A DNA stretch of 64,000 bases, from NCBI RefSeq assembly GCF_010730575.1, contig NZ_AP022614.1, positions 2,542,001 through 2,606,000 on the forward strand. Reading direction: 5' to 3'. The first letter of the stretch is position 1, and each line of letters starts with the position of its first letter. Below the pieces are notes generated by a model that made no database searches, was not told where the DNA came from, and saw only the letters and a list, made by a program, of their open reading frames with translations. The position numbers were made by a program, and so were the translations under genes. Shown here in pieces: positions 4,783-38,918 of this stretch. The stretch comes from Mycobacterium parmense. GTDB lineage: Bacteria > Actinomycetota > Actinomycetes > Mycobacteriales > Mycobacteriaceae.

Positions 4783-4827
4783 GTGACGACCCGCTTCGCC
4801 CGGCACCGCCGCGCTCGCGATCGTCAC
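4783..4827. repeat. 45-bp REP-like element, single copy (ffh / amidohydrolase junction)
   Basis: The ends gtgacga and tcgtcac are perfect inverted repeats around a core related to cccgcttcgcccgg...cgcgctcgcga. It belongs to the same family as the arrays at 20138-20403 and 38711-38918. The stop codon of ffh (4824-4826) is formed by the distal arm, and the other end stops 1 nt from the ATG of the downstream amidohydrolase. This stop-to-start placement resembles mycobacterial MIRU elements, but the sequence and length are different. Confidence 0.85.
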
Positions 4828-6380
4828 GACTTGCCGGGGAACTTGAGCTTCGACAGGTCGAAGTCGGCCAGTCCCGGCGGCAACTCGTTGAGGCCCTCGG
4901 GCATCTGGGACAGGTCGGGGAATCCGGCCGGCATTCCGGGCATGCCGGCCATCAGCGGGTTCCGCGCCTTCGGCGGCGTCGGGCCGCGGGCCCCCTTCTT
5001 GCCCTTCTTGCCCTTGGCCCCCTTGCTCTTGCGAGTGGCCGACTTGCGGCCCAGGCCGGGGATGCCCATGCCGCCGAGCATCGACGACATCATCTTGCGG
5101 GCCTCGAAGAAGCGGTCGACCAGCTGGTTGACCTCGGCGACCGTGACCCCGGACCCGTTGGCGATGCGCAGGCGCCGCGACGCGTTGATGATCTTCGGGT
5201 CGGCCCGCTCCTGGGGCGTCATCCCGCGGATGATGGCCTGCAGGCGGTCCAGATCGCGGTCGTCGACCTGGGCCAGCGCGTCCTTCATCTGCCCGGCGCC
5301 GGGCAGCATGCCCAGCAGGTTGCCGATCGGGCCCATCTTGCGGATGGCGAGCATCTGCTCGAGGAAGTCCTCGAGCGTCAGCTCGCCGGTGCCGATCTTG
5401 GCGGCGGCGGCCTCGGCCTGCTCGGCGTCGAAGACCTGCTCGGCCTGCTCGATCAGGCTCAACACGTCGCCCATGCCCAGGATGCGGCCGGCCATCCGGT
5501 CGGGGTGGAAGACGTCGAAGTCTTCCAGCTTCTCGCCGCTGGAGGCGAACAGGATCGGCACGCCGGTGACCTCGCGGACCGACAGCGCCGCGCCGCCGCG
5601 GGCGTCGCCGTCGAGCTTGGTCAGCACCACCCCGGTGAAGCCGACGCCCTGGCCGAACGCCTCGGCGGTGGCGACGGCGTCCTGGCCGATCATCGCGTCC
5701 AGGACGAACAGCACCTCGTCGGGGTTGACGGCGGCGCGGATGGCCGCGGCCTGGGCCATCAGCTCCTCGTCGATGCCCAGTCGCCCGGCGGTGTCGACGA
5801 TGACGACGTCGTGATGTTTGGCGCGGGCCTCCGCGAGCCCGGCGGTGGCGACCGCGACCGGGTCACCCGGCCCGGATCCCGGCGATTCCCCGGGGTGTGG
5901 CGCGAACACCGGGACCCCGGCACGTTGGCCGGTGACCTGGAGCTGGTTCACCGCGGCCGGCCGCTGCAGGTCGCAGGCCACCAGCAGCGGCGTGTGGCCC
6001 TGGCCGCGCAGCCAGGCGGCCAGCTTGCCGGCCAGCGTCGTCTTACCCGACCCCTGCAGGCCGGCGAGCATGATCACGGTCGGCGGCGTCTTGGCGAACG
6101 CCAGCTGGCGGGTCTGGCCCCCGAGGATCCCGATGAGCTCCTCGTTGACGATCTTGACGACCTGCTGCGCCGGGTTCAGCGCGCCGGACACCTCGGCGCC
6201 CTTGGCGCGCTCCTTGATGCGGTTGACGAAAGCCCGCACCACCGGCAGCGACACGTCCGCTTCCAGCAGCGCCAGCCGGATCTCGCGGGTGGTGGCCTCG
6301 ATGTCGGCGTCGGTCAGTCGACCCTTGCCACGCAGCCCCGCCAGGGCACCGGTCAACCGGTCAGACAGCGATTCGAACAC
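4824..6380 (-). CDS. ffh: Signal recognition particle GTPase Ffh (SRP54)
   Basis: A 518-residue SRP54 protein that binds 4.5S RNA and signal peptides and, with FtsY, docks ribosomes at the membrane. The N domain is followed by the G domain with GLQGSGKT (107-114), a DTAGR motif and TKLDGDARGG, then the methionine-rich M domain (KMGPIGNLLGMLPGAGQM, RKMMSSMLGGMG) and a basic C-terminal tail with SKGAKGKKGKKGA. The start MFESLSDRLTGAL is the family start. The partner gene ftsY is also in this window (12840-14204). The stop codon falls inside the REP-like element. Confidence 0.97.
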   Translation of the reverse strand: MFESLSDRLTGALAGLRGKGRLTDADIEATTREIRLALLEADVSLPVVRAFVNRIKERAKGAEVSGALNPAQQVVKIVNEELIGILGGQTRQLAFAKTPPTVIMLAGLQGSGKTTLAGKLAAWLRGQGHTPLLVACDLQRPAAVNQLQVTGQRAGVPVFAPHPGESPGSGPGDPVAVATAGLAEARAKHHDVVIVDTAGRLGIDEELMAQAAAIRAAVNPDEVLFVLDAMIGQDAVATAEAFGQGVGFTGVVLTKLDGDARGGAALSVREVTGVPILFASSGEKLEDFDVFHPDRMAGRILGMGDVLSLIEQAEQVFDAEQAEAAAAKIGTGELTLEDFLEQMLAIRKMGPIGNLLGMLPGAGQMKDALAQVDDRDLDRLQAIIRGMTPQERADPKIINASRRLRIANGSGVTVAEVNQLVDRFFEARKMMSSMLGGMGIPGLGRKSATRKSKGAKGKKGKKGARGPTPPKARNPLMAGMPGMPAGFPDLSQMPEGLNELPPGLADFDLSKLKFPGKS

Positions 6381-6400
6381 GCGACCAGCCTAGTGGTACT

Positions 6401-6426
6401 GCAAGCGCGGCGAAGCCGGGCGCAGC
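6401..6426. repeat. Decayed REP-like element core upstream of ffh
   Basis: These 26 bases (gcaagcgcggcgaagccggg followed by cgcagc) are identical to the centre of the repeats at 20138-20403. The flanking arms have diverged (gtggtact on one side, agctgcccc on the other), leaving only a short possible pairing. It looks like an old solitary copy, 20 bp upstream of the ffh start codon. Confidence 0.7.
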
Positions 6427-6444
6427 AGCTGCCCCCGCGCGAGG

Positions 6445-6490
6445 GTGCGGCTGCCCGCACACTCGGTGCCCAACGTGCGGCGGGCCGCAC
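6445..6490. repeat. Two tandem 30-bp hairpin units in the ffh / helicase divergent region
   Basis: Two units repeat at a 30-bp spacing. Each has a perfect 6-bp stem gtgcgg/ccgcac with a 4-nt loop (ctgc or cggg), followed by actcggtgc or actcggcgc. They lie between the divergent ffh and helicase genes and may act as terminator, operator or small-RNA structure; nothing in the sequence decides between these. Confidence 0.5.
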
Positions 6491-6639
6491 ACTCGGCGCA
6501 AGAGACGCGGGGAAATCGTCGACGGCGCGCGCCCCGGCGCGACGAGTCGCTGCGGCACTGAAAAGCGTTGGCGTGCTACATTTCACGTCCGCCACTCAAT
6601 CGCGTCGTCCACGCCCAAAACTGCAGACCACGGGGGGAA

Positions 6640-8403
6640 ATGTCCGTGCAACCGCTCGCCCGCACGGACGCGTCCGTCGACGACGAGGGCGGCGCGATCG
6701 CCGAAGCCGGCGGCGGGCCGCTGCGAGGCTGGCAGCGCCGGGCGCTGGTGAAGTACCTGGCCGGCCGGCCGCGCGACTTTCTCGCCGTGGCCACCCCCGG
6801 CTCGGGCAAGACGACGTTCGCCCTGCGCGTGGCGGGCGAGCTGCTGGCCCAGCGCGCCGTCGACCAGATCACCGTCGTGGTGCCCACCGAACACCTCAAG
6901 GTGCAGTGGGCCCAGGCCGCGGCGCGGCAGGGCATCGCCCTGGACCCGAGGTTCTCCAACGGCACCGCAGCGACGTCGGCGGAGTACCACGGCGTGATGG
7001 TGACCTACGCGCAGGTCGCGGCGCACCCCACGCTGCACCGGGTACGCACCGAGCAGCGGCGGACCCTGGTCGTCTTCGACGAGATCCACCACGGCGGCGA
7101 CGCCAAGACCTGGGGCGACGCGATCCGGGAGGCCTTCGGCGACGCGACCCGCCGGCTCGCGCTGACGGGTACGCCGTTCCGCAGCGACGACAGCCCCATC
7201 CCGTTCGTCAGCTATGTCGCGGGCGCCGACGGGGTGCACCGCTCGCAGGCCGACCACACCTATGGCTACTCCGAGGCCCTCGCCGACGGCGTGGTGCGGC
7301 CGGTGGTCTTCCTGGCCTACTCCGGGGAGGCGCGCTGGCGGGACAGCGCCGGCGAGGAGCACTCCGCGCGGCTGGGCGAGCCGCTGTCCCCCGAACAGAC
7401 CGCGCGGGCGTGGCGGACCGCGCTGGATCCCGCCGGCGAGTGGATGCCCGCGGTGATCGCGGCCGCCGATCAGCGGCTGCGCCAGAAGCGGGCCCACGTG
7501 CCCGACGCCGGCGGCATGATCATCGCCTCCGACCGCACCGCGGCCCGCGCCTACGCAGCCCTGCTGACGACGCTCACCGGCGAGGCGCCGACCGTGGTGC
7601 TGTCCGACGATCCCGGGTCGTCGGATCGCATCAGCGAGTTCGCCGAGGGCACCAGCCGGTGGCTGGTCGCCGTCCGCATGGTCTCCGAGGGCGTCGACGT
7701 GCCGCGGCTGTCGGTCGGGATCTACGCCACCAGCGCCTCGACCCCACTGTTCTTCGCGCAGGCCATCGGCCGGTTCGTGCGGTCGCGCCGGCCGGGCGAG
7801 ACGGCCAGCATCTTCGTGCCGTCGGTCCCCAACCTGCTGCAGCTGGCCAGCGAGCTGGAGGCGCAGCGCAACCACGTGCTCGGGGAGCCGCACCGCCCGG
7901 ACGGCGACCCCCTCGACGGCGACCCGGCCGTCAGGACGCAGACCGAGAAGACCGAGGCGGACAACGGGTTCACCTCGCTGGGCGCGGACGCCGAGCTCGA
8001 CCAGGTCATCTTCGACGGGTCGTCGTTCGGCACCGCAACGCCCGCGGGCAGCGAGGAGGAGGCCGACTACCTGGGCATCCCCGGCCTGCTCGACGCCGAC
8101 CAGATGCGCGCCCTGCTGCACCGCCGCCAGGACGAGCAACTGCAGAGGCGTGCCCAGCTGCAGGTGCCGACCGCCGACGCGACGCCCCGGTCGGCCCCGT
8201 CGGTGCACGGCCAGCTGCGCGAGCTGCGTCGCGAGCTCAACACTCTGGTGTCGCTGGCCCACCACCGCACCGGCAAGCCGCACGGCTGGATCCACAACGA
8301 ACTGCGCCGACGCTGCGGGGGTCCGCCGGTGGCCGCCGCCTCCCGCGACCAGATCAAGGCGCGCATCGATGCCCTGCGCCAGCTCAGCTCCGAGCTGGCC
8401 TGA
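6640..8403 (+). CDS. DEAD/DEAH-box (DEIH) superfamily 2 helicase (Rv2917-like)
   Basis: A 587-residue SF2 helicase-like ATPase. Walker A is ATPGSGKT, Walker B is VVFDEIHHGGD, motif III is LTGTPFRSD, and the C-terminal RecA-like lobe has VSEGVDVPRLSVG and FFAQAIGRFVRSRRPGE with the arginine finger. A C-terminal segment of about 80 residues (RRELNTLVSLAHHRTG, GWIHNELRRRCG) is specific to this actinobacterial family. The reading frame is open from 6568; the ATG at 6640 was chosen because a GGGGGG stretch precedes it and the added upstream residues look like untranslated sequence; a GTG at 6646 is an alternative. It converges on glnD with a 6-nt gap. A role in DNA repair is plausible but unproven. 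Confidence 0.88.
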   Translation: MSVQPLARTDASVDDEGGAIAEAGGGPLRGWQRRALVKYLAGRPRDFLAVATPGSGKTTFALRVAGELLAQRAVDQITVVVPTEHLKVQWAQAAARQGIALDPRFSNGTAATSAEYHGVMVTYAQVAAHPTLHRVRTEQRRTLVVFDEIHHGGDAKTWGDAIREAFGDATRRLALTGTPFRSDDSPIPFVSYVAGADGVHRSQADHTYGYSEALADGVVRPVVFLAYSGEARWRDSAGEEHSARLGEPLSPEQTARAWRTALDPAGEWMPAVIAAADQRLRQKRAHVPDAGGMIIASDRTAARAYAALLTTLTGEAPTVVLSDDPGSSDRISEFAEGTSRWLVAVRMVSEGVDVPRLSVGIYATSASTPLFFAQAIGRFVRSRRPGETASIFVPSVPNLLQLASELEAQRNHVLGEPHRPDGDPLDGDPAVRTQTEKTEADNGFTSLGADAELDQVIFDGSSFGTATPAGSEEEADYLGIPGLLDADQMRALLHRRQDEQLQRRAQLQVPTADATPRSAPSVHGQLRELRRELNTLVSLAHHRTGKPHGWIHNELRRRCGGPPVAAASRDQIKARIDALRQLSSELA

Positions 8404-8409
8404 CGGCCG

Positions 8410-10881
8410 CTACTCCTGCACGGGCTTCTCGAGCACTTCCACCGCCGGTCCGCCCAGCACGGCCAGCAGGTGTTGCTCGACGGCCTCGCGGGCGCGTTGC
8501 TCGTCGTCGCCGGCCGGCACGGTGACCGAGAACACGTCGGCCGCCGTCGAGCCGAAGGTGTTGACCTTCGCCCACCGGATGTCGGCTCCCGCCCGCTCCA
8601 GCGCCCGGGTCAGCAGCGCGAGCAGGCCCAGCCGGTCCGTGGCGCGGACCTCGAGGATCAACTGGGCGGCGCAGGCAGACTCCAGCCACAGGATGCGCGG
8701 CGGCGCGACCGAGCGGGTGACCGGGACTCCGACCTGCACCTCGCCGGCCCGCGTGGTCCCCGCGCTCACCGCGTCGTTGTCGCGCTTCTCCAGCGCGCCC
8801 ATGACGTCGACGTCGCCGTTCAGGGCGCCGTTGAACTGCAGGCGCAGCAGGCCCGCCTCGGGGGGCGAGCCGAACAGCGGTGACGCCACGAATTCGACGA
8901 TCGCGACGTCGTCGTGGACGTTGGCCGACGCCGAGTGGATCCGCAGCGAGTTCAAGGCCAGCACCGCGGCCGCCTTGGACACCAGCCCTCGCTGGTCCGG
9001 CGCGAGCATCACCACGTTCACCCGCTCGCTCCCGCCCGGCGTGAGCTCCACGTGCACCCCGTGATCGGCCGCGAGCGAAAGATAGTGCGGCGCAGTGGGT
9101 TCGGCTTGCGGCAGCGGCTCGCCCGCCATCACCAGCCGGCAGCGGCGGACCAGGTCGGCCACCAGCGACGCCTTCCAGTCGCTCCACACCCCCGGGCCGG
9201 TGGCCTTGGAGTCCGCCTCGGCCAGCGCGTGCAGCAGTTCGAGCAGCTGCGGATCGCCGCCCAGGGCTTCGGAGACGCCTTTGATCACCTCGGGGTCGTT
9301 GAGGTCGCTGCGCGTGGCGGTGACCGGCAACAGCAGGTGATGACGCACCATGGCGGACAGCGTGTCGACGTCCCGGGGTGACAGGCCCAGCCTCTCGGCG
9401 ACTGGGACCACCAGGTCGGCCCCCAGCACGCAGTGGTCCACGCCGCGACCCTTGCCGATGTCGTGCAGCAGCGCGCCGAGCGCCAGCAGGTCGGACCGGG
9501 CGACGTTGGTGGTCAACGGCGCGGCCTGGACGGCGGTTTCGACGGTGTGGCGGTCCACGGTGTACTTGTGCGAGACGTCGCGGGGGGCCAGGTCGCGGAT
9601 CGCGTTCCACTCCGGCAGCACCCGGCCCCACAGACCGGTGCGGTCGAGGGCCTCGATGGTCGACACCGTGGTGGGGCCGGCCGACAGCACCACCAACAGG
9701 TCGTCGAGCGCCTCGCGCGGCCACGGCGTCGGCATCTCGGGGGCGACGGCGGCCAGGCGGCTCAGCGTGCCGGCCCCGATGGGCAACCCGGTGCCGGCCG
9801 CCGCCGCGGCCACCCGCAGCACCAGGCCCGGATCGGTGTCCGGGCGCGCGTCGCGGGCGAGGACGATCTCGCCGCCGTACTCGACGACCCCCTCGTCGAG
9901 CGGCCGGCGCCGCGGGCGCCGCACCAGGGCGCCGATCCCGCGGCGCGGCAACGCGTTCTGTGCCGTGCGCAGCCCCGTCTCGGCGTGGTAGGCGATGGTG
10001 CGAGCGGCGCCGGACAGCACGCGCGCCAGATCGAACCTGTCCCCGAACTGCAGGGCGGCGCTGATCTCGTCCGCGAACTGCGCCAGGAGCACCTCGCGTC
10101 CGCGGCCCGACACCCGGTGCAGTTCGGTGCGCACGTCGAGCAGCGTCAGGTAGGCGACGTCCAGGGATCCCTCCGGCAGGTTCGGGTTGGCCATGCCGTG
10201 GCGGTCGATGAGCTGGGCGACCCCCAGCGCGTCCAGCAGCTGCACGTCGCGCAGGCCGCCCTTGCCGGATTTGAGGTCGGGCTCGGCGCGCTGCGCGATC
10301 CGGCCGCAGCGCTGCCAGCGGGCGTGGGTGATCTCGACAAGCTCGTCCATGCGGGAGCGGATCGCGCTGCGCCACTGGCGCCGTGCGCCGGCGATCAGCT
10401 CCGTCGACAGCCGCTCGTCGCCGGCGATGTGGCGCGCGTCCAGCATGCCGAGCGCCGCGATCAGGTCGTTGTTGGCCACCCCCAGCGCCCCCGACACGGT
10501 CCGCACGCTGTGGTCGAGCCGAACGTTGGCGTCCCACAACGGATACCAGAGCCGGTCGGCGACCTCGCCCAGCACCTCGGCGGGCTTGTCGTCGTGCAGC
10601 AGGATCAGGTCCAGGTCCGAGTAGGGCACCAGCTCGCGACGTCCCAGTCCCCCGACGCCGACGATCGAGAAGCCGCTGCCTTCGGTGACGCCGATCTCGG
10701 CGGCCTTTGCGGTGAGCCAGGATTCGTGCAGCTCGAGCCAGGCCCGGCGCAGCGCGGCGGCGTCCAGCTCACCGGCCTCGGCCAGCAGACGACGCCGCGA
10801 AGCGGCCAAATCGCTTGCCCCGCAGACATTTTTCGTTTCCGGTCCAGACGCTCCGGACGGGCCGGGCGGGTACTGTGTCAT
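8410..10881 (-). CDS. glnD: [Protein-PII] nucleotidyltransferase GlnD
   Basis: An 823-residue bifunctional nitrogen sensor that modifies and demodifies the PII protein GlnB on Tyr51; in actinobacteria the modification is generally adenylylation rather than uridylylation. Order of domains: nucleotidyltransferase with [16 protein letters not shown] (about 77-92), a central GlnD-specific region, an HD domain with [11 protein letters not shown], and two C-terminal ACT domains ([11 protein letters not shown] and [13 protein letters not shown]) that sense glutamine. It is the last gene of amt-glnB-glnD, 45 nt after glnB. The start codon lies within a long inverted repeat (10853-10900), which also contains the only purine-rich stretch that could serve as ribosome binding site. 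The N terminus is about 18 residues longer than the M. tuberculosis protein as I recall it, so the start may be further in. Confidence 0.95.
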
Positions 10882-10900
10882 ACCCTCCCGGCCCGTCCGG
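10853..10900. repeat. 20-bp inverted repeat enclosing the glnD start codon
   Basis: Left arm 10853-10872 (ccggacgggccgggcgggta) and right arm 10881-10900 pair at 19 of 20 positions, with an 8-nt loop at 10873-10880. On the glnD mRNA the GGGAGGG segment upstream of the start lies in the 5' arm and the ATG straddles stem and loop. It could attenuate glnD translation or act as a processing or termination hairpin between glnB and glnD; there is no U-run. Confidence 0.8.
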
Positions 10901-10926
10901 CCCGATTCATCGATGTGCGGCGAGGG

Positions 10927-12698
<1,772 letters not shown>

Positions 12699-12776
12699 TC
12701 GCTATCACCTCCGGTCGCACAGGGACGGCCGGCAGGCGTGCGCCTGTGGCCTGATCCAGAACCATGCGCAATGGTT

Positions 12777-12816
12777 GTTTCCGCAGTAAAGCCACAGTGT
12801 TTCGTCAGGATTAACG
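12777..12816 (-). promoter_or_regulatory. Candidate GlnR operator upstream of amt
   Basis: On the minus strand two GAAAC half-sites lie exactly 22 bp apart (their reverse complements are at 12777-12781 and 12799-12803), with a GTTAAT element upstream. The known actinobacterial GlnR consensus is gTnAC-n6-GaAAC repeated, so the GAAAC-to-GAAAC distance fits, but the intervening gTnAC half-sites are weak. The site is about 80-115 bp upstream of the amt start. Confidence 0.4.
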
Positions 12817-12839
12817 TCAGGCTTGCCGTGTAAGGGCAC

Positions 12840-14204
12840 TCAGCCAAGCAGCGCGTCGACGAAGGCAGCCGGCTCGAAGGGCGCCAAATCGTCGGGACCT
12901 TCGCCGAGCCCAACCAGCTTCACCGGCACCCCGAGTTCCTGCTGAACACGGAAAACGATGCCGCCCTTGGCCGTTCCGTCCAGCTTGGTCAGGACGGCCC
13001 CGGTGATGTCGACGACGTCGGCGAAGACGCGCGCCTGCGCCAGCCCATTCTGGCCGATGGTCGCGTCGAGAACCAGCAACACCTCGTCGACGGCGGCCCG
13101 CCGGGTCACCACGCGCTTGACTTTGTCGAGTTCGTCCATCAGCCCGACCTTGGTGTGCAGGCGCCCCGCGGTGTCGATGAGCACCACGTCGGCGCCCGCG
13201 GCGATGCCCTTGTCGACGGCGTCGAACGCCACCGCCGCGGGGTCGGCGCCCTCGGCCCCGCGCACCACCTCCGCGCCGACCCGCGACGCCCAGGTCTCCA
13301 GCTGATCGGCCGCCGCGGCCCGGAAGGTGTCGGCGGCCCCCAGCACGACGCGCCGCCCGTCGGCCACCAGCACCCGCGCCAGCTTGCCGACGGTGGTGGT
13401 CTTGCCGGTGCCGTTCACGCCGACGATCAGCAACACCGACGGGTGGTCGGCGTGCGGCAGGGCGCGGATCGAGCGGTCCATGTCGGGTCGCAGCTCGGTG
13501 ATCAGAACGTCGCGGAAAACGGCCTTGGCGTCGGCCTCGGTGCGCACGGCGCTGCTCGCCAGCCGGCTGCGCAACTGGGCGATGACCGACTCGGCGACCA
13601 CCGGGCCCAGGTCGGCGACCAGCAGGGTGTCCTCGACGTCCTGCCAGGCCTCCTCGTCCAGGTCGCCCCCGCCGATCAGGCCCAGCACGCTGCGCCCGAG
13701 CGCGTTCTGCGACCTGGCCAGCCGGCCGCGCAGCCGTTCCAGCCGGCCTTCGGTCGGGGCGATCTCCTCGATCTCCGGGGCAGCCGGCGTCGGCCCGGGC
13801 GCCGGCTCCGGGGTCTCCGGGGCCGGCGGGGTTTCCAGGGCCGGCGGGGCCTCCGGGACCGGCGGGGCCTCCGCAGCCGGCGGAGCCTGCGGCGGCGAGG
13901 CGATCGTCTCGGGTTCGGGGAGGGTGACCTCGGAGATCGTGCGCCGGGGCGCGTCGCGCGGGACGGCCGCGTCGTCGCCGACCCCGGGCAGCCCCGTGGT
14001 GTCCACCCGTTCGGCGGTCGGCGTCTGGCTGAAGGAGATGCCCGACGACGCCGTGTAACCGCCGGAGCGGTCGAGCGTTCCGGGCTGCGCCTGGGCCGTG
14101 AAGCTGATCCGACGCCGCCGGTGGCGCACCAGTCCCAGGACCAGCAGGGCGACGACAAGCAGGGCCGCGACGACCGCGACGGCGATCCAAAGACCTTGGG
14201 ACAC
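12840..14204 (-). CDS. ftsY: Signal recognition particle receptor FtsY
   Basis: A 454-residue SRP receptor GTPase. It starts with a membrane helix (GLWIAVAVVAALLVVALLVLGL) followed by basic residues, then a long acidic, Pro/Ala/Glu-rich linker, and the NG domain with GVNGTGKTTT, the DTAGR motif and TKLDGTAKGG. It ends directly after FVDALLG. The GTG at 14204 gives the mycobacterial family start. It is transcribed from the same strand as smc, 63 nt downstream of it. It works with Ffh at 4824-6380. Confidence 0.96.
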   Translation of the reverse strand: MSQGLWIAVAVVAALLVVALLVLGLVRHRRRRISFTAQAQPGTLDRSGGYTASSGISFSQTPTAERVDTTGLPGVGDDAAVPRDAPRRTISEVTLPEPETIASPPQAPPAAEAPPVPEAPPALETPPAPETPEPAPGPTPAAPEIEEIAPTEGRLERLRGRLARSQNALGRSVLGLIGGGDLDEEAWQDVEDTLLVADLGPVVAESVIAQLRSRLASSAVRTEADAKAVFRDVLITELRPDMDRSIRALPHADHPSVLLIVGVNGTGKTTTVGKLARVLVADGRRVVLGAADTFRAAAADQLETWASRVGAEVVRGAEGADPAAVAFDAVDKGIAAGADVVLIDTAGRLHTKVGLMDELDKVKRVVTRRAAVDEVLLVLDATIGQNGLAQARVFADVVDITGAVLTKLDGTAKGGIVFRVQQELGVPVKLVGLGEGPDDLAPFEPAAFVDALLG

Positions 14205-14267
14205 GGTGACATTGTTTCAAGCGGCCCGGCGGCGGCGGGACCGCCCCTGGTCAGCCCCGGTCAGCTA

Positions 14268-20137: not shown

Positions 20138-20403
20138 GTGATGATCGCAAGCGCGGCGAAGCCGGGCGCAGCGGGTCATCACCATCAAGACCAGTGATGA
20201 TCGCAAGCGCGGCGAAGCCGGGCGCAGCGGGTCATCACCATCAAGACCAGTGATGATCGCAAGCGCGGCGAAGCCGGGCGCAGCGGGTCATCACCACACC
20301 CCACGATGATCGCAAGCGCGGCGAAGCCGGGCGCAGCGGGTCATCACCATCAAGACCAGTGATGATCGCAAGCGCGGCGAAGCCGGGCGCAGCGGGTCAT
20401 CAC
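20138..20403. repeat. Five tandem REP-like elements between rnc and mutM
   Basis: Copies occupy 20138-20182, 20194-20238, 20250-20294, 20303-20347 and 20359-20403. Each is 45 bp with inverted ends gtgatga/tcatcac around gcaagcgcggcgaagccggg-cgcagcggg. Copies 1-3 and 4-5 repeat every 56 bp with the same 11-bp spacer catcaagacca, while copies 3 and 4 are separated by a different 8-bp spacer (cacacccc) and copy 4 begins ac instead of gt. The array starts 3 nt before the mutM ATG and ends 15 nt from the rnc stop codon, so it would be transcribed in a rnc-mutM message as five hairpins. Copy number is likely to vary between strains. Confidence 0.95.
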
Positions 20404-26585: not shown

Positions 26586-26594
26586 TGTTGCAAC

Positions 26595-29189: not shown

Positions 29190-29414
29190 GGTCAGCTCCC
29201 TCGGTACGACTGCGTCACGCTGAGCGATGGTCACGGCACGTCGACACCCCCGCCGGTCACCGCAAACAACGATCGGGCGAACGCATTGCCGACTCCCGGA
29301 TGCCGTTCGACCAACTCTACGTGGTGCCCCCGACACGCCCCCGCACCGATCGGCCGGCATACCCGCTGAGTAATATCGTGGTCTCCAGGTCGGTGAACCC
29401 TCACGAATCGCGAG

Positions 29415-29430
29415 CGAACGTCGACGTTCG
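29415..29430. promoter_or_regulatory. Perfect 16-bp palindrome upstream of the aldo/keto reductase
   Basis: cgaacgtcgacgttcg is fully self-complementary. It lies 27 bp upstream of the chosen TTG start and is followed by a third half-site-like gtcgaacg. It could be an operator. The spacing between CGAAC and GTTCG is 6, not the 4 of the mycobacterial LexA box. Confidence 0.4.
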
Positions 29431-29457
29431 ATGTCGAACGACAGGCAGGTGAATGAC

Positions 29458-30300: not shown

Positions 30301-30312
30301 GCCGCCGCCCCG

Positions 30313-31026: not shown

Positions 31027-33242
31027 GACTTGTCCAGATACTCGATGCGATCGGTGGTGGTGAACTGCGCCGCGAGCAGCTCCATCCGCGGATTCGACGG
31101 GTCCTGCTCGTACTCGCGCACGCACAGTTCGCGGGCGGCCTCGATGACGTCGCTGTGGTCGGCCAGCGATAGCCATCGCAGATTGATCGCACGCCCGGAC
31201 TGGTTGCGGCCCAGCACATCTCCCTCCCGACGCTCCTTGAGGTCCAGGTCGGCCAGCGCGAAGCCGTCCAGCGTCCCGGCGACCGCCGAAAGCCGTTCGC
31301 CCGCGCGCGATCCCGGCGATACCCAACTGGCCAGCAGGCACAGGCTGGGGTGCCGGCCGCGGCCGATGCGCCCGCGCAGCTGATGCAACTGACTGATACC
31401 GAACCGGTCGGCGTCCATCACCAGCATGACCGTGGCGTTCGGGACGTCGACGCCCACCTCGATCACGGTGGTGCACACCAGCACATCGATCTCCCCCGCC
31501 CGGAACGCCGCCATTGCGGCGTCCTTCTCCTCGGCGGGCAGCCGCCCGTGCATGAGCCCCAGCCGCAGCGCGGCGAGCTCGCCGGCCCGCAGCCGGGCGA
31601 ACATTCCCTCGGCCGTCGCCGAAGGTCGCGCCCCTTGCTCGCCCGAGCCCTGCTCGTCGGAGTCGTCGATCCGCGGCGCCACCACGTACGCCTGGCGGCC
31701 CTGCGCGACCTCCTCGACGATGCGCCGCCAGGCCCGCTCGAGCCAGGCGGGCTTGTCGTTGACGAAGATCACGTTGGTGGTGATCGGCTGGCGTCCGCGC
31801 GGAAGTTCGCGCAGCGTGGACGTTTCCAGGTCGCCGTAGACCGTCAGCGCGACGGTGCGCGGGATCGGCGTCGCGGTCATCACCAGCAGGTGCGGCGTGA
31901 CGCCGGCGGGAGCCTTGGCGCGCAACCGGTCTCGCTGCTCGACGCCGAAGCGGTGCTGCTCGTCGACCACCACCATGCCCAGGTTGTGGAAGTCGACCGC
32001 GTCCTGCAGCAGCGCGTGGGTGCCGACGACGATGCCCACCTGGCCGCCGGCGACTTCCGCCCGCACCTGTTTCTTCTGCGCCGCGGTCATCGAACCGGAA
32101 AGCAGCGCGACTCGAGTCGCATCGTCCGCGCCGCCCAGCTGGCCAGCCATCCCCAGGGGTCCCAGCACGTCGCTGATCGACCGGACATGTTGGGCGGCAA
32201 GCACTTCGGTGGGAGCGAGTAGCGCGCACTGATAGCCGGCGTCCACCAGCTGCAGCATCGCCAGCACGGCCACGATCGTCTTGCCGGACCCGACCTCGCC
32301 CTGCAGCAGGCGGTTCATCGGCCGGGTGGCCGACAGCTCCCCGGACAACACGGCGAGCACGTCGCGCTGGCCCGCCGTGAGCTCGAAGGGCAGGCGCTGC
32401 AAGAGTTTCGCGGCCAGGCCGTCGCTGCGCGGCGGTGCGGGCGGCCCCGACGCGGACAGCTCACTGTGCCGGCGTGCCAGCAGCGCCCACTGCAGGCCCA
32501 CGGCTTCGTCGAAGGTCAGGCGCTGCACCGCCCGCCGGCGCGCCGACTCCTCCTCGGCGAGGTGGATGTCGCGCAGGGCCCGGTCCTCGTCGATCAGCCC
32601 GTGCCGGGCACGAAAGTCCTCGGGCAGTGGGTCGTCCACCGGGTCGAGGACGTCGAGCACCTGGCGCACGCAGGCGAAGATGTCCCAGCTCTGCACCTTG
32701 GTGCTGGCCGGATAGATCGGGAAGAAGGCCCGCTCGAACGCCGACATCTGCAGGTCGCCGCCGGCCGCCTGCGACGCCCTGGCGATGCTGGCCAGCGACT
32801 TGGTCCCGTGACTCTTGCCGTCGGGCGAGTCGAGGATGAGAAACGCCGGGTGCGTCAGCTGCATGACGCCGTTGAAGAACCCGACCTCCCCCGAGAGCAT
32901 CACCTTGGTGCCCTTCGTCAGGTCCTTCTTGATGTAGTTCGCATTGAAAAACGTTGCGGTTACCCGGTTTCGGCCCGAGCCGAGGGTGATGCGGTGGCAG
33001 TCCCTCTTCCGGTTGGTCCTCATCGGGAACGTCTTGGTCTCGGCAATCGTGTCGACGAGCGTGATGTGCTCGCCGGCCGGCGGGCGTTCGTCGTCGCTGT
33101 CCCAGCGGCTCGCGCCCTCGGTGTAGCTGCGCGGGTAGTGGCGCAGCAGGTCGTCGACGGTGCGGATGCCGAAGCCCTCGTCGAGCGGATCGGCGGCCTT
33201 GGCGCCCACGACGTAGTCCAGCCGGTCGCGCAGCGTCGCCAC
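31023..33242 (-). CDS. recG: ATP-dependent DNA helicase RecG
   Basis: A 739-residue branch-migration helicase for Holliday junctions and stalled forks. The wedge/OB domain includes DTIAETKTFPMRTNRKRDC; the motor has LLQGEVGSGKTIVAVLAM (Walker A), VVDEQHRFGVEQRD (DEQH), LVMTATPIPRT, and the second lobe TTVIEVGVDVPNATVMLV with QLHQLRGRIGRG. GTG start. Only 2 nt separate it from the upstream DAK-domain gene, the order seen in many bacteria (fakA-like followed by recG). Confidence 0.96.
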   Translation of the reverse strand: MATLRDRLDYVVGAKAADPLDEGFGIRTVDDLLRHYPRSYTEGASRWDSDDERPPAGEHITLVDTIAETKTFPMRTNRKRDCHRITLGSGRNRVTATFFNANYIKKDLTKGTKVMLSGEVGFFNGVMQLTHPAFLILDSPDGKSHGTKSLASIARASQAAGGDLQMSAFERAFFPIYPASTKVQSWDIFACVRQVLDVLDPVDDPLPEDFRARHGLIDEDRALRDIHLAEEESARRRAVQRLTFDEAVGLQWALLARRHSELSASGPPAPPRSDGLAAKLLQRLPFELTAGQRDVLAVLSGELSATRPMNRLLQGEVGSGKTIVAVLAMLQLVDAGYQCALLAPTEVLAAQHVRSISDVLGPLGMAGQLGGADDATRVALLSGSMTAAQKKQVRAEVAGGQVGIVVGTHALLQDAVDFHNLGMVVVDEQHRFGVEQRDRLRAKAPAGVTPHLLVMTATPIPRTVALTVYGDLETSTLRELPRGRQPITTNVIFVNDKPAWLERAWRRIVEEVAQGRQAYVVAPRIDDSDEQGSGEQGARPSATAEGMFARLRAGELAALRLGLMHGRLPAEEKDAAMAAFRAGEIDVLVCTTVIEVGVDVPNATVMLVMDADRFGISQLHQLRGRIGRGRHPSLCLLASWVSPGSRAGERLSAVAGTLDGFALADLDLKERREGDVLGRNQSGRAINLRWLSLADHSDVIEAARELCVREYEQDPSNPRMELLAAQFTTTDRIEYLDKS

Positions 33243-33244
33243 TT

Positions 33245-34897
33245 CTACTCGACTCCGATCAGCAGCGCGTCGCCGCGATGGCCGGTGCGATAGGTCACCA
33301 GCTCGGTGCCCGGATGATGGTCGTGCACATGCTCTTCGAGGATGTCGGCCACCGCGCCCGCGTCGTCGTCCGTCTCGATGCCGGCGCCCATCAGCACCGT
33401 CAGCAGGTCCCCGCCCGCCGCCAGCAGCAGGTCGATCAGGCCGATCGCGGCCCCGATCGCGTCGGGCGCCACGATCAGCACCTCGTCGCCCGCGATGCCC
33501 AGCCCGTCGCCCGGTTGGCAGCGACCCGCCCAGGTCAACGCGCTCTCGGTGGCGATCCGCACCGACCCGTGCCGGGCGGCGCCGGCGGCGCGGGCCATGG
33601 TGTACCCGTCGTCGACGGCCTGCCTGCCCGGTTCGTGTACCGCAAGGGCGGCCAGGCCCTGCACCATCGACCCCGTCGGTATCGGCACCACGTCGATGCC
33701 CCAGCCGATGGCCGCGGTGCAGCCGGCGACCAGCTCTTCGGCGGCCACGTAGCCGTTGGGCAGCAGCATCACCTGCGCGGCGCCGGTGTCGACCACCGCC
33801 CGCATCAGCCGGTGGGCGCTGACGTCGGTCGCGGGATCGCTCGCCGACGGGCCCGGGCGCAGCACGCTGGCCCCCTCGCCCGAGAACAGCTCGGCCGCGC
33901 CGTCGCCGTCGACCACGGCAAGCACCGCCCGTTCCCTGGTCCAGCCGCCCGCCGGCAGCCCGGTGACACCGGAGCTCAGGGCCGAGATCACGATGCGGCT
34001 CAGCCGGCCGGCCGCCAGCCCCGCCTCGACGGCGGCGCCCGCGTCGTCGGTGTGCACGTGCACGGAGTAGGTGGCCCGGCCGGTCGCGGGCGCGGCGGTG
34101 ATGGCCACCGAGTCACCCAACTCCCCCAGCCGGTCGCGGAGCACGTCCGTGGCGGCGGCGTCACAACCGTCGAGCCGGTACATCACCTCGAACTGCGGCG
34201 CCGGGCGGTCGGCGACGGCTTCGGGTTCCGCGGCCCGCGGCGAGAGCTCGTACACCGTGCGGGCGGGCGCCTGCCCGCTGACGGTGGAGCGCAGGGCGTC
34301 CAGCAGCACCAGCAGGCCCCTGCCGCCGGCGTCCACCGCGCCGGCGTCGGCGAGCACGTCGAGCTGCTCGGTGGTCTTTTCCAGCGCGACGACGGCCGCG
34401 TCACCGGCCGCGGTGATCGCCGCGCCCAGCCCGTCCCCGGCGCAGTCGCGCGCGGCGCCCGCGGCGGCCCGCAGCACCGAGACGATGGTTCCCGGCACCT
34501 CCTGCCCGCCCATCGACGAGATGACCAGCTCGACGCCGCGCTGGAGCGCGGCCGCCAGGGTGGGCGCATCGATGTGAGGCAGTTCACCGCCGGCTCCGGC
34601 GGCCGCGGTCGCGGTGACGTCGGCGATGCCGCGCAGGATCTGCGACAGGATCACGCCGGAGTTGCCGCGGGCGCCGTTGAGCGCACCGGCCGACAGGGCC
34701 GCGGCGGCGCGGGCGACACACGCCGTCCCGTCGGCGCCGGCTCCGGCGTTCGCCTCGGCCAACGCCGAACGCATGGTGAACAGCATGTTCGCCCCGGTGT
34801 CGGAGTCGGCGACCGGGAAGACGTTGAGCCGGTTGATCTCGTCGATGTGGGTGATCAGGTCGCTGACGGCGGTGTGCGCCCACTCCCTGAGGGTCAC
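33245..34897 (-). CDS. DAK-domain / fatty acid kinase FakA-like protein
   Basis: About 550 residues. The N-terminal kinase domain has the DAK/FakA signature NVFPVADSDTGANMLFTM and GARGNSGVILSQILRG; the rest resembles the middle and C-terminal FakA domains. FakA phosphorylates fatty acids bound to a FakB partner in Firmicutes; the mycobacterial role is not established. In M. tuberculosis H37Rv this gene is split into Rv2974c and Rv2975c; here it is continuous. The start is uncertain: the GTG at 34897 gives the usual distance to the signature, while a strong AGGAGG at 34949-34954 is followed 9 nt later only by an in-frame CTG (34939), and the frame is open to 35026. Confidence 0.8.
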   Translation of the reverse strand: MTLREWAHTAVSDLITHIDEINRLNVFPVADSDTGANMLFTMRSALAEANAGAGADGTACVARAAAALSAGALNGARGNSGVILSQILRGIADVTATAAAGAGGELPHIDAPTLAAALQRGVELVISSMGGQEVPGTIVSVLRAAAGAARDCAGDGLGAAITAAGDAAVVALEKTTEQLDVLADAGAVDAGGRGLLVLLDALRSTVSGQAPARTVYELSPRAAEPEAVADRPAPQFEVMYRLDGCDAAATDVLRDRLGELGDSVAITAAPATGRATYSVHVHTDDAGAAVEAGLAAGRLSRIVISALSSGVTGLPAGGWTRERAVLAVVDGDGAAELFSGEGASVLRPGPSASDPATDVSAHRLMRAVVDTGAAQVMLLPNGYVAAEELVAGCTAAIGWGIDVVPIPTGSMVQGLAALAVHEPGRQAVDDGYTMARAAGAARHGSVRIATESALTWAGRCQPGDGLGIAGDEVLIVAPDAIGAAIGLIDLLLAAGGDLLTVLMGAGIETDDDAGAVADILEEHVHDHHPGTELVTYRTGHRGDALLIGVE

Positions 34898-35183
34898 CGC
34901 GTCCAGCAGGCGATCCTGCGACGTGCCAGAAGTGCCCAGAGTGACCCACCTCCTCTGTCTCCTCCGTGCATCCCGGTGCGCGCCAGCGTAGCCCGGCGCG
35001 AGGCGCGCCGGCTGACCGTCAATCACCGCGGGCGAGCCGGCCCATCGAGCCTAGCCAGACCCGACGACAGTGGTGGCGACCGTTTTGGCGGTAGCCGCAA
35101 CTGTCGGTATCCTGGTACGGCCCGGTCAACCTGGGCAGTCCCGGCCCGCTTGCCGGACCCCCGAGATCTGAGGAGCTTGAACA

Positions 35184-35378
35184 ATGGCCGCTGTGTGCGA
35201 CATCTGCGGGAAAGGCCCCGGCTTCGGTAAGTCGGTGTCGCACTCCCACCGCCGCACCAGCCGCCGTTGGGACCCCAACGTCCAGACCGTGCACGTGGTG
35301 GCGCGTCCCGGCGGCAACAAGCAGCGCCTCAACGCCTGCACGTCGTGCATCAAGGCGGGCAAGGTCGTCCGCGGCTGA
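35184..35378 (+). CDS. rpmB: 50S ribosomal protein L28, zinc-ribbon type
   Basis: A 64-residue ribosomal protein. The cysteine pairs C5/C8 (CDIC) and C52/C55 (CTSC) form a zinc ribbon, so this is the zinc-requiring (C+) form; mycobacteria also carry C- paralogues used in zinc starvation. ATG start with GAGGAG 7 nt upstream. A TATCCT at 35108-35113 could be the -10 box. It is divergent from the DAK gene, an arrangement common in actinobacteria. Confidence 0.97.
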   Translation: MAAVCDICGKGPGFGKSVSHSHRRTSRRWDPNVQTVHVVARPGGNKQRLNACTSCIKAGKVVRG

Positions 35379-35399
35379 ACGCGCCGCACTCTTGCGCCG

Positions 35400-36353
35400 T
35401 CAGTCGGCCAGGCGCGGCGGTCCGTCGGCCCGCACGACGATGACGGTCTTGCCCGCACCCCGGGCCGGGCGCCCGCGGCTCTCGAACGCCTCGCGGCCCT
35501 GGGCCATCGCAAAGGTGGCCGCCACCGGGACCCGCAACCGGCCGGAGTCGACGAGCGTCGCCAGTTCGGCGAGCTGATCGCGGTTCGGCGTGACGACGAA
35601 GAACATCGCGCTGACCCCGTACTCGCCGGCCATACCGCCCGGCGGGGGCGCCGACAGGGTGACCAGCCGGCCGCCGCGGCGCAGCATCCCGAACGACCGC
35701 AGCAGCGTGTCGCCGCCGACGGTGTCGATGACGACGTTGTACGCGCGAGCGTCGTCGAAGGGTTCCGCGCGGACGTCGACCACCCGGCGGGCGCCCAGGT
35801 CCCGGACCAGCCCGGCGGTGTCGCTGCGGACGGTCGCGGTGACGTCCGCGCCCAGTGTCGCGGCCAGCTGCACAGTCAACGCGCCGACCCCGCCCGCGCC
35901 GCCGAGCACCAGCACCGCCTCCCCGGGCCGTACCGCGGCGTGGTCCACCAGGGCCTGCAGCGCCGTCAACCCCGCCAGCGGCAGCGCGGCGGCGGCGACG
36001 TGCGACACCGTCGAGGGCTTCCGGGCCAACCCGGCCGCCGGCACGGCGACGAAATCGGCCGCCGCACCGTCCCGGTCGAAGTCGATCAGCCCGTACACCT
36101 CGTCGCCGGGCCGCAAATGCGTTGCCTACGAACCGATCTCGGACACCACGCCGGACACCTCGTGTGACGGGATGATCGGGACCCGGCTCATGCCGTCGCG
36201 GGTCCACGTCTGCTCCCACGTCAACTCGTCGAACGTGATGGCGGCTGCGTGGACGGCCACCAGGACTTCGCCGGCGCCCGGGACCGGCACGGGCGCCCGC
36301 TCGACGACCAGTTCCTCGGGACCCCCGCGGCGGTGCGCCCGTAGCGCCGTCAT
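35400..36353 (-). pseudogene. NADP-dependent quinone oxidoreductase/alcohol dehydrogenase, interrupted by an in-frame TAG
   Basis: One continuous reading frame of 317 codons plus stop encodes a medium-chain dehydrogenase/reductase, but codon TAG at 36126-36128 breaks it. The N-terminal part (MTALRAHRRGGPEELVVERA to SEIGS) holds the GroES-like domain; the remainder resumes in frame at ATHLRPGDEVYGLIDFDRDG and carries the NADP-binding fold with VLGGAGGVGALTVQLA and ending in IVVRADGPPRLAD. No frameshift is needed, so a single base change would restore it. Either a true nonsense mutation, an assembly error, or two separately translated parts (a TTG at 36116 could restart). Its start overlaps the region just after the ung stop codon. 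No equivalent is known to me at this place in M. tuberculosis. Confidence 0.85.
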
Positions 36354-36358
36354 CTCCC

Positions 36359-37042
36359 TCAAGGCAGCCGCCAGTCGACCGGGTCGGCGCCCATCTTCGT
36401 CAGCAGGTCATTGGCGCGGCTGAACGGGCGCGAGCCGAAAAACCCCCGCGACGCCGACAGCGGCGACGGGTGCGGCGACTCGATCGCCGCGCAATCGCCC
36501 TCGGCCAGAATGGGTTTCAGCGTGGACGCGTCGCGGCCCCACAGGATCGCCACCATCGGCTGCGAGCGCCCGACCAGCGCGCGGATCGCGCACTCGGTGA
36601 TCGCCTCCCACCCCTTGCCGCGGTGCGAGGCCGGCGTGCCGGGCCGCACCGTCAGCACCCTGTTCAGCAGCAGCACGCCGCGCTGCGCCCAGGGCGTCAA
36701 ATCTCCGCACGACGGCGGGGGGTGGCCCAGGTCGGCGGAGTACTCGTCGAAGATGTTGGCCAGGCTGCGGGGCAGCGGACGCACATCGGCGGCCACCGAA
36801 AAGCTCAGCCCGACAGCGTGTCCCGGTGTCGGGTAGGGGTCCTGGCCGACGATCAGCACCCGGACGGCGTCGAACGGGAAGGTGAAGGCGCGCAACACAT
36901 TCGGGCCCGCGGGCAGATACCGGCGCCCGGCGGCGACCTCGGCGCGCAGGAACCGCCCCATCTCGGTCACCCGGTCGGCGACGGGCTCGAGCGCCGTTGC
37001 CCAACCCGGGTCGACGAGTTCGTGCAGCGGTCGTGCCGTCAT
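36359..37042 (-). CDS. ung: Uracil-DNA glycosylase
   Basis: A 227-residue family-1 uracil-DNA glycosylase. The water-activating loop [17 protein letters not shown] and the leucine loop [23 protein letters not shown] are present. The ATG at 37042 has GGAGGG upstream and gives the M. tuberculosis start MTARPL; the longer frame would run into thiL. It lies 23 nt downstream of thiL. Confidence 0.97.
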
Positions 37043-37065
37043 CGCGCCACCCTCCTCAAGTCCGT

Positions 37066-38037
37066 TCATCTCCCCTCGTAGGACTGCCAGCCGGCATACC
37101 CGCTCCACTCCCGCCCGTCGACCAGCACCCGGGCCGGGCCGGGGAGCACGCGTCCGATCGCCCGCCACCCGGGCGGCACCGGACCCGCGAAACAGGCGAC
37201 CAGAGCGTGGTCCTCGCCGCCCCCGAGCACCCACGGCCAGGGGTCGGCGCCGGCGGCGGCCGCGGCTTCGGCCACCGCGTCGTGGTCGGCGCGAAGCGCC
37301 TCGGTGGCCAGGTCCATGGCCACCCCGGACGCCGCGGCGACGTGCCGCAGGTCGCCGATCAGGCCATCGGACACGTCGATCATCGCCTGCGCGCCGGCGG
37401 CCGCGGCCGCCGCGCCCTGCCCGTAGGGCGGCTGGGGAACCAGGTGCCTGCGCCGCAGCCCCCCGAAGCCGCCGATCCCCCGCTCCCACAAGGCATAGCC
37501 GGCCGCCGAGCGGCCCAGTTCACCCGCGACGGCGATCACCGAGCCGGCCTTCGCACCGGAGCGCAGCACCGGGGCGCGGCCGTCCAACTCGCCGAGCACC
37601 GTCACCGACAGCACCCACTGCGGGCAGCTGACCAGGTCGCCGCCGGCGATGCCGGCGCCGACACGCTCGGCCTCGTCCCACATCCCGTCCACCAGCTCGT
37701 CGGCGGCCGCGGCAGGGGTGTCGCCGGGCGCCGCGAACCCGACGACGAACGCTGTCGGGCGCGCGCCCATCGCCTCGATGTCGGCGGCGTTCTGCGCGAT
37801 GGCCTTGCGGCCGACGTCGTGCGGTGTCGACCAGTCCAGCCGAAAGTGCCGGTCCTGCACGAGCATGTCGGTGGACACCACCGTGCGACCGTCCCGGGCG
37901 GCCACCACCGCCGCGTCGTCACCGGGCCCGAGCTGGACCGCGGGGGGCTGCCGGCGCCCGCGCACCATGCGGTCGATGACGGCGAACTCGCCGAGGCGCC
38001 CCAGCGTCGGCGGCTCCCCCGAGTTATCGTCGCGCAC
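37066..38037 (-). CDS. thiL: Thiamine-monophosphate kinase
   Basis: A 323-residue enzyme that phosphorylates thiamine monophosphate to thiamine pyrophosphate. Motifs: [20 protein letters not shown] with metal-binding acidic residues, [11 protein letters not shown], the [13 protein letters not shown] segment, and the [10 protein letters not shown] motif. The GTG at 38037 has AAGGAGGTGGC immediately upstream. First gene of thiL-ung; the DUF3515 gene is divergent. Confidence 0.96.
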
Positions 38038-38149
38038 GCCACCTCCTTGGGGCCTCTGCGGCCGGGGCACGGTCGCCGACCTGCGGTACGTTGGGAGCCT
38101 GCTGCAACGGACGGCCCGCGCCAGTGTATGAGACAGGAGGTGCCGGCCG

Positions 38150-38710
38150 GTGAAGGCCGCATCGGATCCCGACGCGGGGCCCCCGCGTGCGGCGATCGTC
38201 GCCGCGGTGGCGCTGGCCGTCGCGGTGATCGGCGCGATCCTGGTCATCGCGGCGACCCGGCAGGGGCCGCCGCAACCGGTCGCCGTCCCCGACGCCCCGG
38301 CGCCGCAGGCCGCCGATCCCGCGTGCCAGGCGCTGGCGGCCGCGCTGCCGCCGCGGCTCGGGGACTACCGGCTCGCGCCGCTGGCTCAACCGGCCCCGCA
38401 GAGCGCCTTCGCCTGGCGGACGGGGTCCGACGGCGAGCCGGTCGTGTTGCGCTGCGGGCTGGACCGCCCGGACGAGTTCGTGGTCGGTTCGCCCATTCAG
38501 GTCGTCGATCGGGTGCAGTGGTTCGAGGCGCGGCCCGAACAGCAATCCGCCGGTGACGCGGGCACCTCCACCTGGTACGCGGTCGACCGGCCGGTGTACG
38601 TGGCGCTCACGCTGCCGTCGGGGTCGGGGCCGACGCCCATCCAGCAACTCTCCGAGCTGATCGACCGCACGATGCCGGCGGTGCCCATCAAACCGGGACC
38701 GCCGCGCTAG
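38150..38710 (+). CDS. DUF3515 membrane-anchored protein (Rv2980-like)
   Basis: A 186-residue protein with one N-terminal membrane helix (AAIVAAVALAVAVIGAILVIAA) and an extracytoplasmic domain with two conserved cysteines (PACQALAAALP and VLRCGLDRPDEF). DUF3515 has no known function. GTG start with AGGAGG 9 nt upstream. The stop codon is immediately followed by the four-copy repeat array, which fills the whole space to ddl. Confidence 0.85.
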   Translation: MKAASDPDAGPPRAAIVAAVALAVAVIGAILVIAATRQGPPQPVAVPDAPAPQAADPACQALAAALPPRLGDYRLAPLAQPAPQSAFAWRTGSDGEPVVLRCGLDRPDEFVVGSPIQVVDRVQWFEARPEQQSAGDAGTSTWYAVDRPVYVALTLPSGSGPTPIQQLSELIDRTMPAVPIKPGPPR

Positions 38711-38918
38711 GTGGCGACCCGCTTCGCCCGGCCCCGCCGCGCTCGCGATCGCCACGTACCCGATGGTGACGACCCGCTTCGCCCGGCTCCGCCGCGCTCG
38801 CGATCGCCACGTACCCGATGGTGGCGACCCGCTTCGCCCGGCTCCGCCGCGCTCGCGATCGCCAGGTTCGATGGTGGCGACCCGCTTCGCCCGGCTCCGC
38901 CGCGCTCGCGATCGCCAC
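38711..38918. repeat. Four tandem REP-like elements between DUF3515 gene and ddl
   Basis: Copies at 38711-38755, 38766-38810, 38821-38865 and 38874-38918. Each is 45 bp with ends gtggcga/tcgccac (copy 2 begins gtgacga; copy 3 ends tcgccag) around cccgcttcgcccggctccgc and cgcgctcgcga. Spacers are gtacccgatg (twice) and gttcgatg. This is the reverse orientation of the family at 20138-20403. The array starts at the base after the DUF3515 stop codon and ends 2 nt before the ddl stop codon, so it is the entire convergent intergenic region and may serve as a bidirectional terminator. Confidence 0.95.

Follow-up and report, generated by a model that had tools for sequence, protein, structure and literature searches.

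Copies of a hairpin element in the window

The window analysed here is the whole 64,000-nucleotide (nt) stretch of the Mycobacterium parmense genome (contig NZ_AP022614.1, positions 2,542,001 to 2,606,000), and it carries 11 copies of a 45-nt imperfect hairpin element. One copy is found at 4783 (locus C, the ffh end), five at 20138-20403 (locus A, rnc-fpg), four at 38711-38918 (locus B, DUF3515/ligase), and one diverged copy at 6393 (locus D, upstream of ffh). The original prediction had described three loci with ten copies of the same element and differing terminal arms. These were present as described and were confirmed by direct reading, by a tandem-repeat search and by a consensus scan, which gave 10 matches in the window compared to a mean of 0.00 in 100 shuffles of it; the diverged copy was added as the eleventh. 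On the G strand, used as the reference strand, the element reads GTGRYGATCGCRAGCGCGGCGNAGCCGGGCGNAGCGGGTCRYCAC, and in this orientation the 20138 array lies on the plus strand and the 4783 and 38711 loci on the minus strand. The description of the arms held overall, but not for the copies at 20303 (ACGATGA/TCATCAC) and 38821 (CTGGCGA/TCGCCAC). In the copy at 38766, predicted to be an intermediate with one mismatch, the mismatch is a G4-T42 wobble on the G strand.

Table 1. Positions of the element copies and of the tetranucleotides bordering locus B, numbered from the first letter of the window.
Feature	Position	Strand	Arms and remarks	Setting
Locus C, single copy	4783..4827	-	GTGACGA/TCGTCAC	gap between SRP54 (ffh) stop and amidohydrolase gene
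Locus D, diverged copy	6393..6435	+	36.1 bits, from the model search	12 nt from called ffh start
Locus A, array copy 1	20138..20182	+	GTGATGA/TCATCAC	gap from rnc (RNase III) to fpg (formamidopyrimidine-DNA glycosylase)
Locus A, array copy 2	20194..20238	+		
Locus A, array copy 3	20250..20294	+		
Locus A, array copy 4	20303..20347	+	without the two outer arm pairs	
Locus A, array copy 5	20359..20403	+		
Locus B, boundary CTAG	38707..38710			includes TAG of DUF3515 gene
Locus B, array copy	38711..38755	-	GTGGCGA/TCGCCAC	adjoins DUF3515 gene stop TAG
Locus B, array copy	38766..38810	-	GTGGCGA/TCGTCAC	
Locus B, array copy	38821..38865	-	C1-C45	
Locus B, array copy	38874..38918	-		2 nt from called stop of convergent D-Ala-D-Ala ligase gene
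Locus B, boundary CTAA	38921..38924			includes ligase gene's stop on the minus strand

At locus C the called ffh stop codon, TGA, lies inside the 5′ arm of the element. The 3′ arm of the locus D copy has decayed, while its relatives in L285, L290, L301 and L307 have AGTGGYA/TRCCACT arms. Close to this copy, a short palindrome (GTGCGGC..GCCGCAC) lies beside CACTCGG at 6443-6492 and recurs upstream of ffh in L291, L309, L310 and L311; the window contains two copies and a weaker match at 47243, with 0.23 expected.

Paired changes in the arms and the probable folded strand

Covariation of the arms was measured on two sets of copies. Set A1 consisted of 100 distinct sequences, each from another cluster, aligned without gaps. 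These are 100 of 105 rows drawn from distinct sequences only, with the first copy taken per cluster; L041:1297, L042:1691, L047:6347, window:6392 and L106:1879 were dropped by eye because they were out of register or diverged, or, in the case of L106:1879, had another inner stem. The conserved core of A1 results from the construction of the fetching pattern, and arm columns 1-6 and 41-45 lie outside that pattern. A1 contained 76 double-changed cells, compared to 22.0 after shuffling (0/500). Two weaker measures, the pairs with a double change and the further pair types, gave 5/500 and 12/500. Pairs 1-45 to 5-41 vary and co-vary, and sliding the partner by 1-3 columns left 2-14 double cells. 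The prediction that the arms covary between loci is thus borne out beyond the three loci on which it was made. In the second set, A2, taken from the M. parmense genome itself (113 rows, 64 distinct) and fitted to the model structure, towards which it leans, there were 37 double-changed cells compared to 11.7 after shuffling (0/500). Slides gave 1-10 double cells, and the weaker measures were 8/500 and 80/500, the further pair types being unexceptional (80/500). Pairs 6 and 7 also swap, in the own-genome loci L178, L160 and L155. Independent changes in the two arms were looked for and not seen. At L106 1879-1923 and, upstream of ffh, in L298, arms GTGGTGA/TCACCAC enclose a different inner stem (CCCCGC..GCGGGG) that is paired throughout.

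Because the shuffle controls leave relatedness in the counts, changes that occurred in place at orthologous loci weigh more. Locus A was sampled in 70 genomes, made up of the 30 nearest by search and 40 hand-picked from the listing, and was occupied in 16. Arms GTGATGA/TCATCAC were present in at least one copy in 13 of these 16, GCGATGA/TCATCGC in two, and GTTATGA/TCATAAC in one, which correspond to double changes from T2-A44 to C2-G44 (L194, L199) and from G3-C43 to T3-A43 (L242). Among 30 genomes, locus B was occupied in 9, held relics in 2 (L255, L268) and was without a recognised core in 19. Here T2-A44 had become C2-G44 in both L276 copies and T2-G44 in an L258 copy, and the L279 copies had T5-G41. 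The L268 relic lies in the opposite orientation and therefore suggests a separate arrival at this locus. At locus C, 14 of 30 genomes had an intact copy, 4 an altered core with kept arms, and 12 none, and L291 had T2-G44. At locus D, C6-G40 (L301, L307), T6-G40 (L290) and T6-A40 (L285) form a wobble path across species, and L298 carries another arm type. Each locus tends to keep its own arm type through speciation, with the arms changing mostly by pairs. The covariation and the paired changes in place together uphold the claim that a hairpin, and not sequence alone, is kept.

Both strands can fold, but the predicted RNA fold of the G strand is stronger (-25 to -29.6 kcal/mol, compared to -20.5 to -22.6 kcal/mol; three copies). 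Mismatches were counted on the G strand over 114 clusters, with identical copies merged, the best-paired copy taken per cluster and 7 left out for having fewer than 5/7 arm positions paired. G-U mismatches numbered 18 versus 6 for A-C (p=0.023), and G-A mismatches 25 versus 9 for C-U (p=0.009). Over 219 distinct copies, orthologs included, the single-mismatch copies gave 21 versus 6. These excesses point to the G strand as the probable folded strand. Splitting the counts by orientation leaves too few cells to separate RNA from single-stranded DNA.

Within the core, bases 12 and 32 vary together in a way that Watson-Crick pairing does not explain. Over 37 loci they read GA 18, AC 9, CC 6, GC 2, AA 1 and GT 1, and 0/20000 permutations were as strong. 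Orthologs of locus B include both GA and AC, and AA is common in A1 (18/100). A13 is nearly invariant and G31 invariant, and the coupling together with these two bases resembles tandem sheared pairs. Subfamily linkage by descent is a simpler rival to a non-canonical pair. Arms with GGAG/CGAC, found in 8/219 distinct copies, would also form a tandem G-A motif. Position 1 is G in 33/37 own-genome loci.

Distribution, boundaries and genomic setting

A covariance model built from the 100 copies of set A1 was used to search the M. parmense genome and the genus. Its E-values are rough. The M. parmense genome (5.95 Mb, one contig) gave 128 rows at E<=10 and, within the fetched stretches, 113 copies at 37 loci at E<=1e-4, so that the copies do belong to a dispersed family, as originally proposed. 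This count leaves out L154, L163, L182 and L183, which are weak matches inside called genes, and L147 yielded none. A 54-bit copy at L156 2235-2279 (own genome 2290034-2290078) lies inside the end of a coding region according to the gene caller.

In the genus, 88/198 genomes matched at E<=0.001, the M. parmense genome included. At least 7 scored copies were found in 76 genomes, 2 in one, 1 in 11, and none in 110; as about 31 candidates were scored per genome in the genus and order scans, and 150 in the own genome, these copy numbers are lower bounds. Ten of the 11 one-copy matches are weak (3e-7 or worse), and the remaining one, in the incomplete genome G005, is strong. Among the matches listed (80 of 115 stretches) in a scan of named genomes, only Mycobacterium, Mycolicibacter and Mycolicibacterium vulneris occur. 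In the order, 40/200 genomes matched. The 29 of these that lie outside the genus have 1-2 matches each at marginal E-values (9.9e-6 to 1e-3) and were read as chance. Within what was searched, the family is confined to part of Mycobacterium, the host genomes being those of slow growers.

Gene calls came from our own codon-usage caller, by which some neighbours are mislabelled and the left call is overlapping or missing in 22/151 clusters. The unit consists of the 45-nt imperfect hairpin with YTA before it and a spacer of 8-11 nt after it, approximately CATCGGGNCTA; the flank consensus is CTA/G...C/CATCGGGNCTA, with slashes at the element's edges. The 5′ boundary is YTA(R), also beside gene starts: YTA abuts the 5′ end in 54/151 clusters, compared to 0-6 at offsets 1-12, and does so equally often beside a gene start (16/45). 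On the 3′ side a clear boundary is seen only where a stop codon adjoins. In one pair of orthologous sites, the empty site in L303 reads GGCAAGAACTAGCCGCGCC, with CTAG once, and in the filled site of L290 the unit is flanked by CTAG at either end. Of the window's 40 YTAR sites, 8 are coding, although 90% of the window is coding, and of the other 32, 9 are in contact with a stop codon and 23 are intergenic.

In terms of placement, the 120 classified clusters comprised 44 between convergent genes, 35 sense-tandem, 21 antisense-tandem and 20 divergent. The window's 53 gene pairs, gapless ones included, are 10 convergent, 33 tandem and 10 divergent, which makes for a convergent excess at the clusters (p=0.02). 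Of 85 resolved 5′ sides, 57 carried a stop codon, which in 25 cases lay at distance -1. Either the boundary sequence or function may account for this phasing. Unlike the GC hairpin of an intrinsic terminator, the element is not followed by a U-tract, T being present in at most 28/151 clusters at each of positions 4-14. Both orientations were seen by eye on both replication halves of the genome; no replication-strand bias is claimed.

Gain and loss were followed on a midpoint-rooted tree of 24 genomes with two weak nodes, on which core-altered copies at locus C were scored as present. Of these genomes, 7, 9 and 15 are occupied at loci A, B and C; the minimum number of changes is 6, 7 and 6, and if each locus was gained once, 9, 8 and 8 losses are required. 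The rnc stop abuts the fpg start in 20/70 genomes at locus A, 6 of them in the tree, and some of the 20 have no copy at all and therefore need not be losses. Because arm types are shared at the loci, old insertions with repeated loss are favoured. Among occupied orthologs of loci A, B and C (16, 9 and 14 genomes), with the core sought at up to 5 changes and locus C copies picked by their GTGACGA 5′ arm, mean pairwise identity was 0.949, 0.940 and 0.990 in the arms and 0.918, 0.903 and 0.957 in the core. No intact ffh-end copy starts with anything other than GTGACGA. In the flanks, identity was 0.541, 0.602 and 0.641 in the 3′ spacer and 0.749, 0.394 and 0.517 in the 12 nt on the 5′ side. The arms are far more alike than the adjacent spacer, which speaks for selection at the site rather than free decay once inserted.

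The Y1 (RAYT-like) transposase partner suggested in the original prediction was rejected, since PF01797 gave 0 matches in the M. parmense genome, the only genome searched apart from 14 control genomes, of which 5 matched; the other occupied genomes lay outside this search. An autonomous or split copy with the same ends, as the parent of a miniature inverted-repeat transposable element (MITE) would be, was sought by eye in the own genome, and no exact half-site pair around a gene was found. In Rfam, no family scored above its gathering score at the element, and the E<=10 matches were far below their own thresholds. Phages gave no match, viral contigs 0 exact matches, and plasmids one matching record, a M. 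riyadhense megaplasmid, so there is no sign in these collections of a phage or plasmid vehicle.

Known repeats, interpretation and alternatives

The sequence of the element is already known, and the suggestion that the family might be undescribed is not supported as far as the sequence goes. A variable BCG intergenic stretch, which we take to be ETR-F/VNTR3239 at the rnc-fpg place in M. tuberculosis (the literature search gave no confirmation), contains a 79-nt indel. As given in the accessible part of PMC9870133, this indel includes GTGATGATCGCAAGCGCGGCGAAGCCGGGCGCAG and TCATCAC, as in the locus A arms; the BCG unit differs in having an extra GC-rich stretch. A second small GC-rich hairpin stretch of the CCCCCGCAAGCGGGAGGTGCCCCC type was observed nested in or beside copies in the L232 rnc-fpg gap, near the ffh start in L289 and L286, and in the BCG sequence in that source, and it could account for the longer BCG unit. 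The suggestion that the repeat is used in M. avium-complex typing was correct: four of five new primers for repetitive-sequence PCR in M. intracellulare (1, 2, 4 and 5), compared by eye, are stretches of the element, and the five reportedly match 226 loci (Shin et al. 2023, PMC10117815). In the accessible part of that paper the sequence appears as a target for primers, and neither its fold nor its boundaries nor any variation of its arms is described. The element is therefore in print as a primer target and a variable intergenic stretch, which partly identifies it with a described repeat. No description of it as a structured family was found in the literature searched, which subscription papers mostly lay beyond, and neither the co-change in place nor the 5′ YTAR boundary was met there.

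TRIT, a motif linked with Gardner and colleagues (2011, RNIE), is reportedly a structured motif near M. tuberculosis gene ends. A published TRIT model for this species is named in the accessible part of PMC3526491. Myt-1 and Myt-8 are structured M. tuberculosis repeat families of 75 and 33 copies, described in the available text with model lengths of 72 and 92 bp and no clear preference for positions within or between genes (Cozzuto et al. 2008, PMC2267715). By description, both TRIT and Myt-1 are candidates for belonging to one family with the element. MIRU is likewise a mycobacterial intergenic tandem repeat; a MIRU-containing family, Myt-11, is listed separately in the part of PMC2267715 seen.

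The observation is real and was understated in the original prediction: the element is structured and old, and its presence varies more than could have been known from the window. Our data are best read, with a probability of about one half, as a non-autonomous hairpin element that favours YTAR sites and whose folded strand is kept by selection. The element would enter YTAR sites, mainly CTAG, and the resulting CTAG on both sides would leave a gene whose stop codon is hit with one stop codon. Because YTAR is rare in coding DNA, copies would end up at gene ends. The G-strand hairpin would then be maintained in place, its arms diversifying mainly by paired changes via G-U; slippage would produce the tandem arrays, and deletion between the short flanking repeats would restore the empty site. 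The selected form is most likely an RNA hairpin in the untranslated ends of mRNA, where it might act as a 3′-end stabiliser or as a barrier between converging genes.

Several observations weigh against this reading. YTA abuts 36% of clusters, and the 3′ YTA peak at +8 (14/151) consists of 10/78 beside a stop and 2/64 beside a gene start, the latter no more than at +17; because the peak rests mainly on stop-codon loci, it does not establish target duplication as a general feature. The CTAG doubling is clean in one pair, as L303 and L290 are the sole clean empty and filled sites and the other filled copies there have a changed left flank. Of the two marks of a MITE, terminal inverted repeats and a target-site duplication, the element thus has the inverted arms, while the signs of duplication are mixed. 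An unpaired A-C-type intermediate exists (C2-A44 in one L279 copy), and the 5′ arm has been lost from internal array copies of L191, L215 and L232. A strand-specific C-to-T bias could mimic the G-U excess, and the clusters include orthologs. The bias of sense over antisense tandem placement is mild (35 versus 21, p=0.08), which is weak for a role at mRNA 3′ ends. Neither a transposase nor an autonomous copy was found in the own genome.

The element may instead not be mobile at all and be a conserved non-canonical terminator or 3′-processing hairpin such as the TRIT motif, with YTA as part of the motif or stop codon and the position after the stop reflecting function. The frequency and phasing of stop codons on the 5′ side, the convergent excess, the concentration of the 3′ YTA beside stops, the strong G-strand fold and the existence of the TRIT model are all in keeping with this account, but it would have to accommodate the lack of a U-tract, the 41/120 clusters without a preceding stop on the G strand, the 20 between divergent genes, and the absence of the element at the same gene pair in many relatives. 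The stop-codon association was not taken to prove that the element works as a terminator, since the 5′ YTA is equally frequent beside gene starts and is retained where there is no stop. We consider this account possible but rather unlikely. Somewhat more doubtful is a bolder form of the insertion reading, in which a tiny insertion element is aimed at YTAR, the tetranucleotide of stop codons, and restores a stop codon at each side, so that neither of two converging genes is harmed; it would be moved by a non-Y1 enzyme and kept by the host for a non-canonical fold made up of a GNA apex, tandem sheared pairs and the 12-32 coupling.

Co-change could also be mechanical and without selection, if quasi-palindrome correction (template switching in the hairpin at replication) copied one arm onto the other. 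This would also yield double changes in place and like arms within arrays, and core position 16-28 is paired instead of G-G in 7/37 loci. However, the core mismatches mostly persist (G16-G28 in 30/37 loci, the 12-13/31-33 loop, and bulge G36 in 36/37), the GGAG/CGAC arms keep two positions unpaired in the Watson-Crick sense, G-U exceeds A-C, and conservation is far higher in the arms than in the spacer next to them, so that we regard this explanation as improbable. Least probable, and surprising if it held, is a REP/RAYT-like mode in which a Y1 (HUH) transposase recognises the foot tetranucleotide and mobilises the hairpin in the form of single-stranded DNA. Repetitive extragenic palindromes (REP) with RAYT are likewise short imperfect palindromes that are scattered outside genes and have a tetranucleotide at the foot, and the element has a bulged imperfect hairpin, a preferred tetranucleotide at the 5′ foot and dispersed intergenic copies. 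Unlike REP/RAYT, its stem base varies by paired changes and the M. parmense genome has no Y1 transposase in the PF01797 search, although the enzyme could have been lost, and split copies were absent, by eye, among the exact half-sites of this genome.

Pieces of this repeat are used to type mycobacteria, yet the literature searched does not say what the repeat is. The natural variants, the occupied and empty orthologous sites and the G-U intermediates make two questions testable. One is whether U-less hairpins act at the ends of mycobacterial genes; the other is by what route short palindromes between genes come and go when no transposase for them has been identified.

Two further tandem repeats were observed in the window. 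An 18-bp GC-rich repeat with 4.7 copies lies at 13809-13892, and a 27-bp repeat with 7.3 copies lies at 45347-45542; translated from the reverse strand, it would give a HupB-like tail rich in Ala, Lys and Pro.

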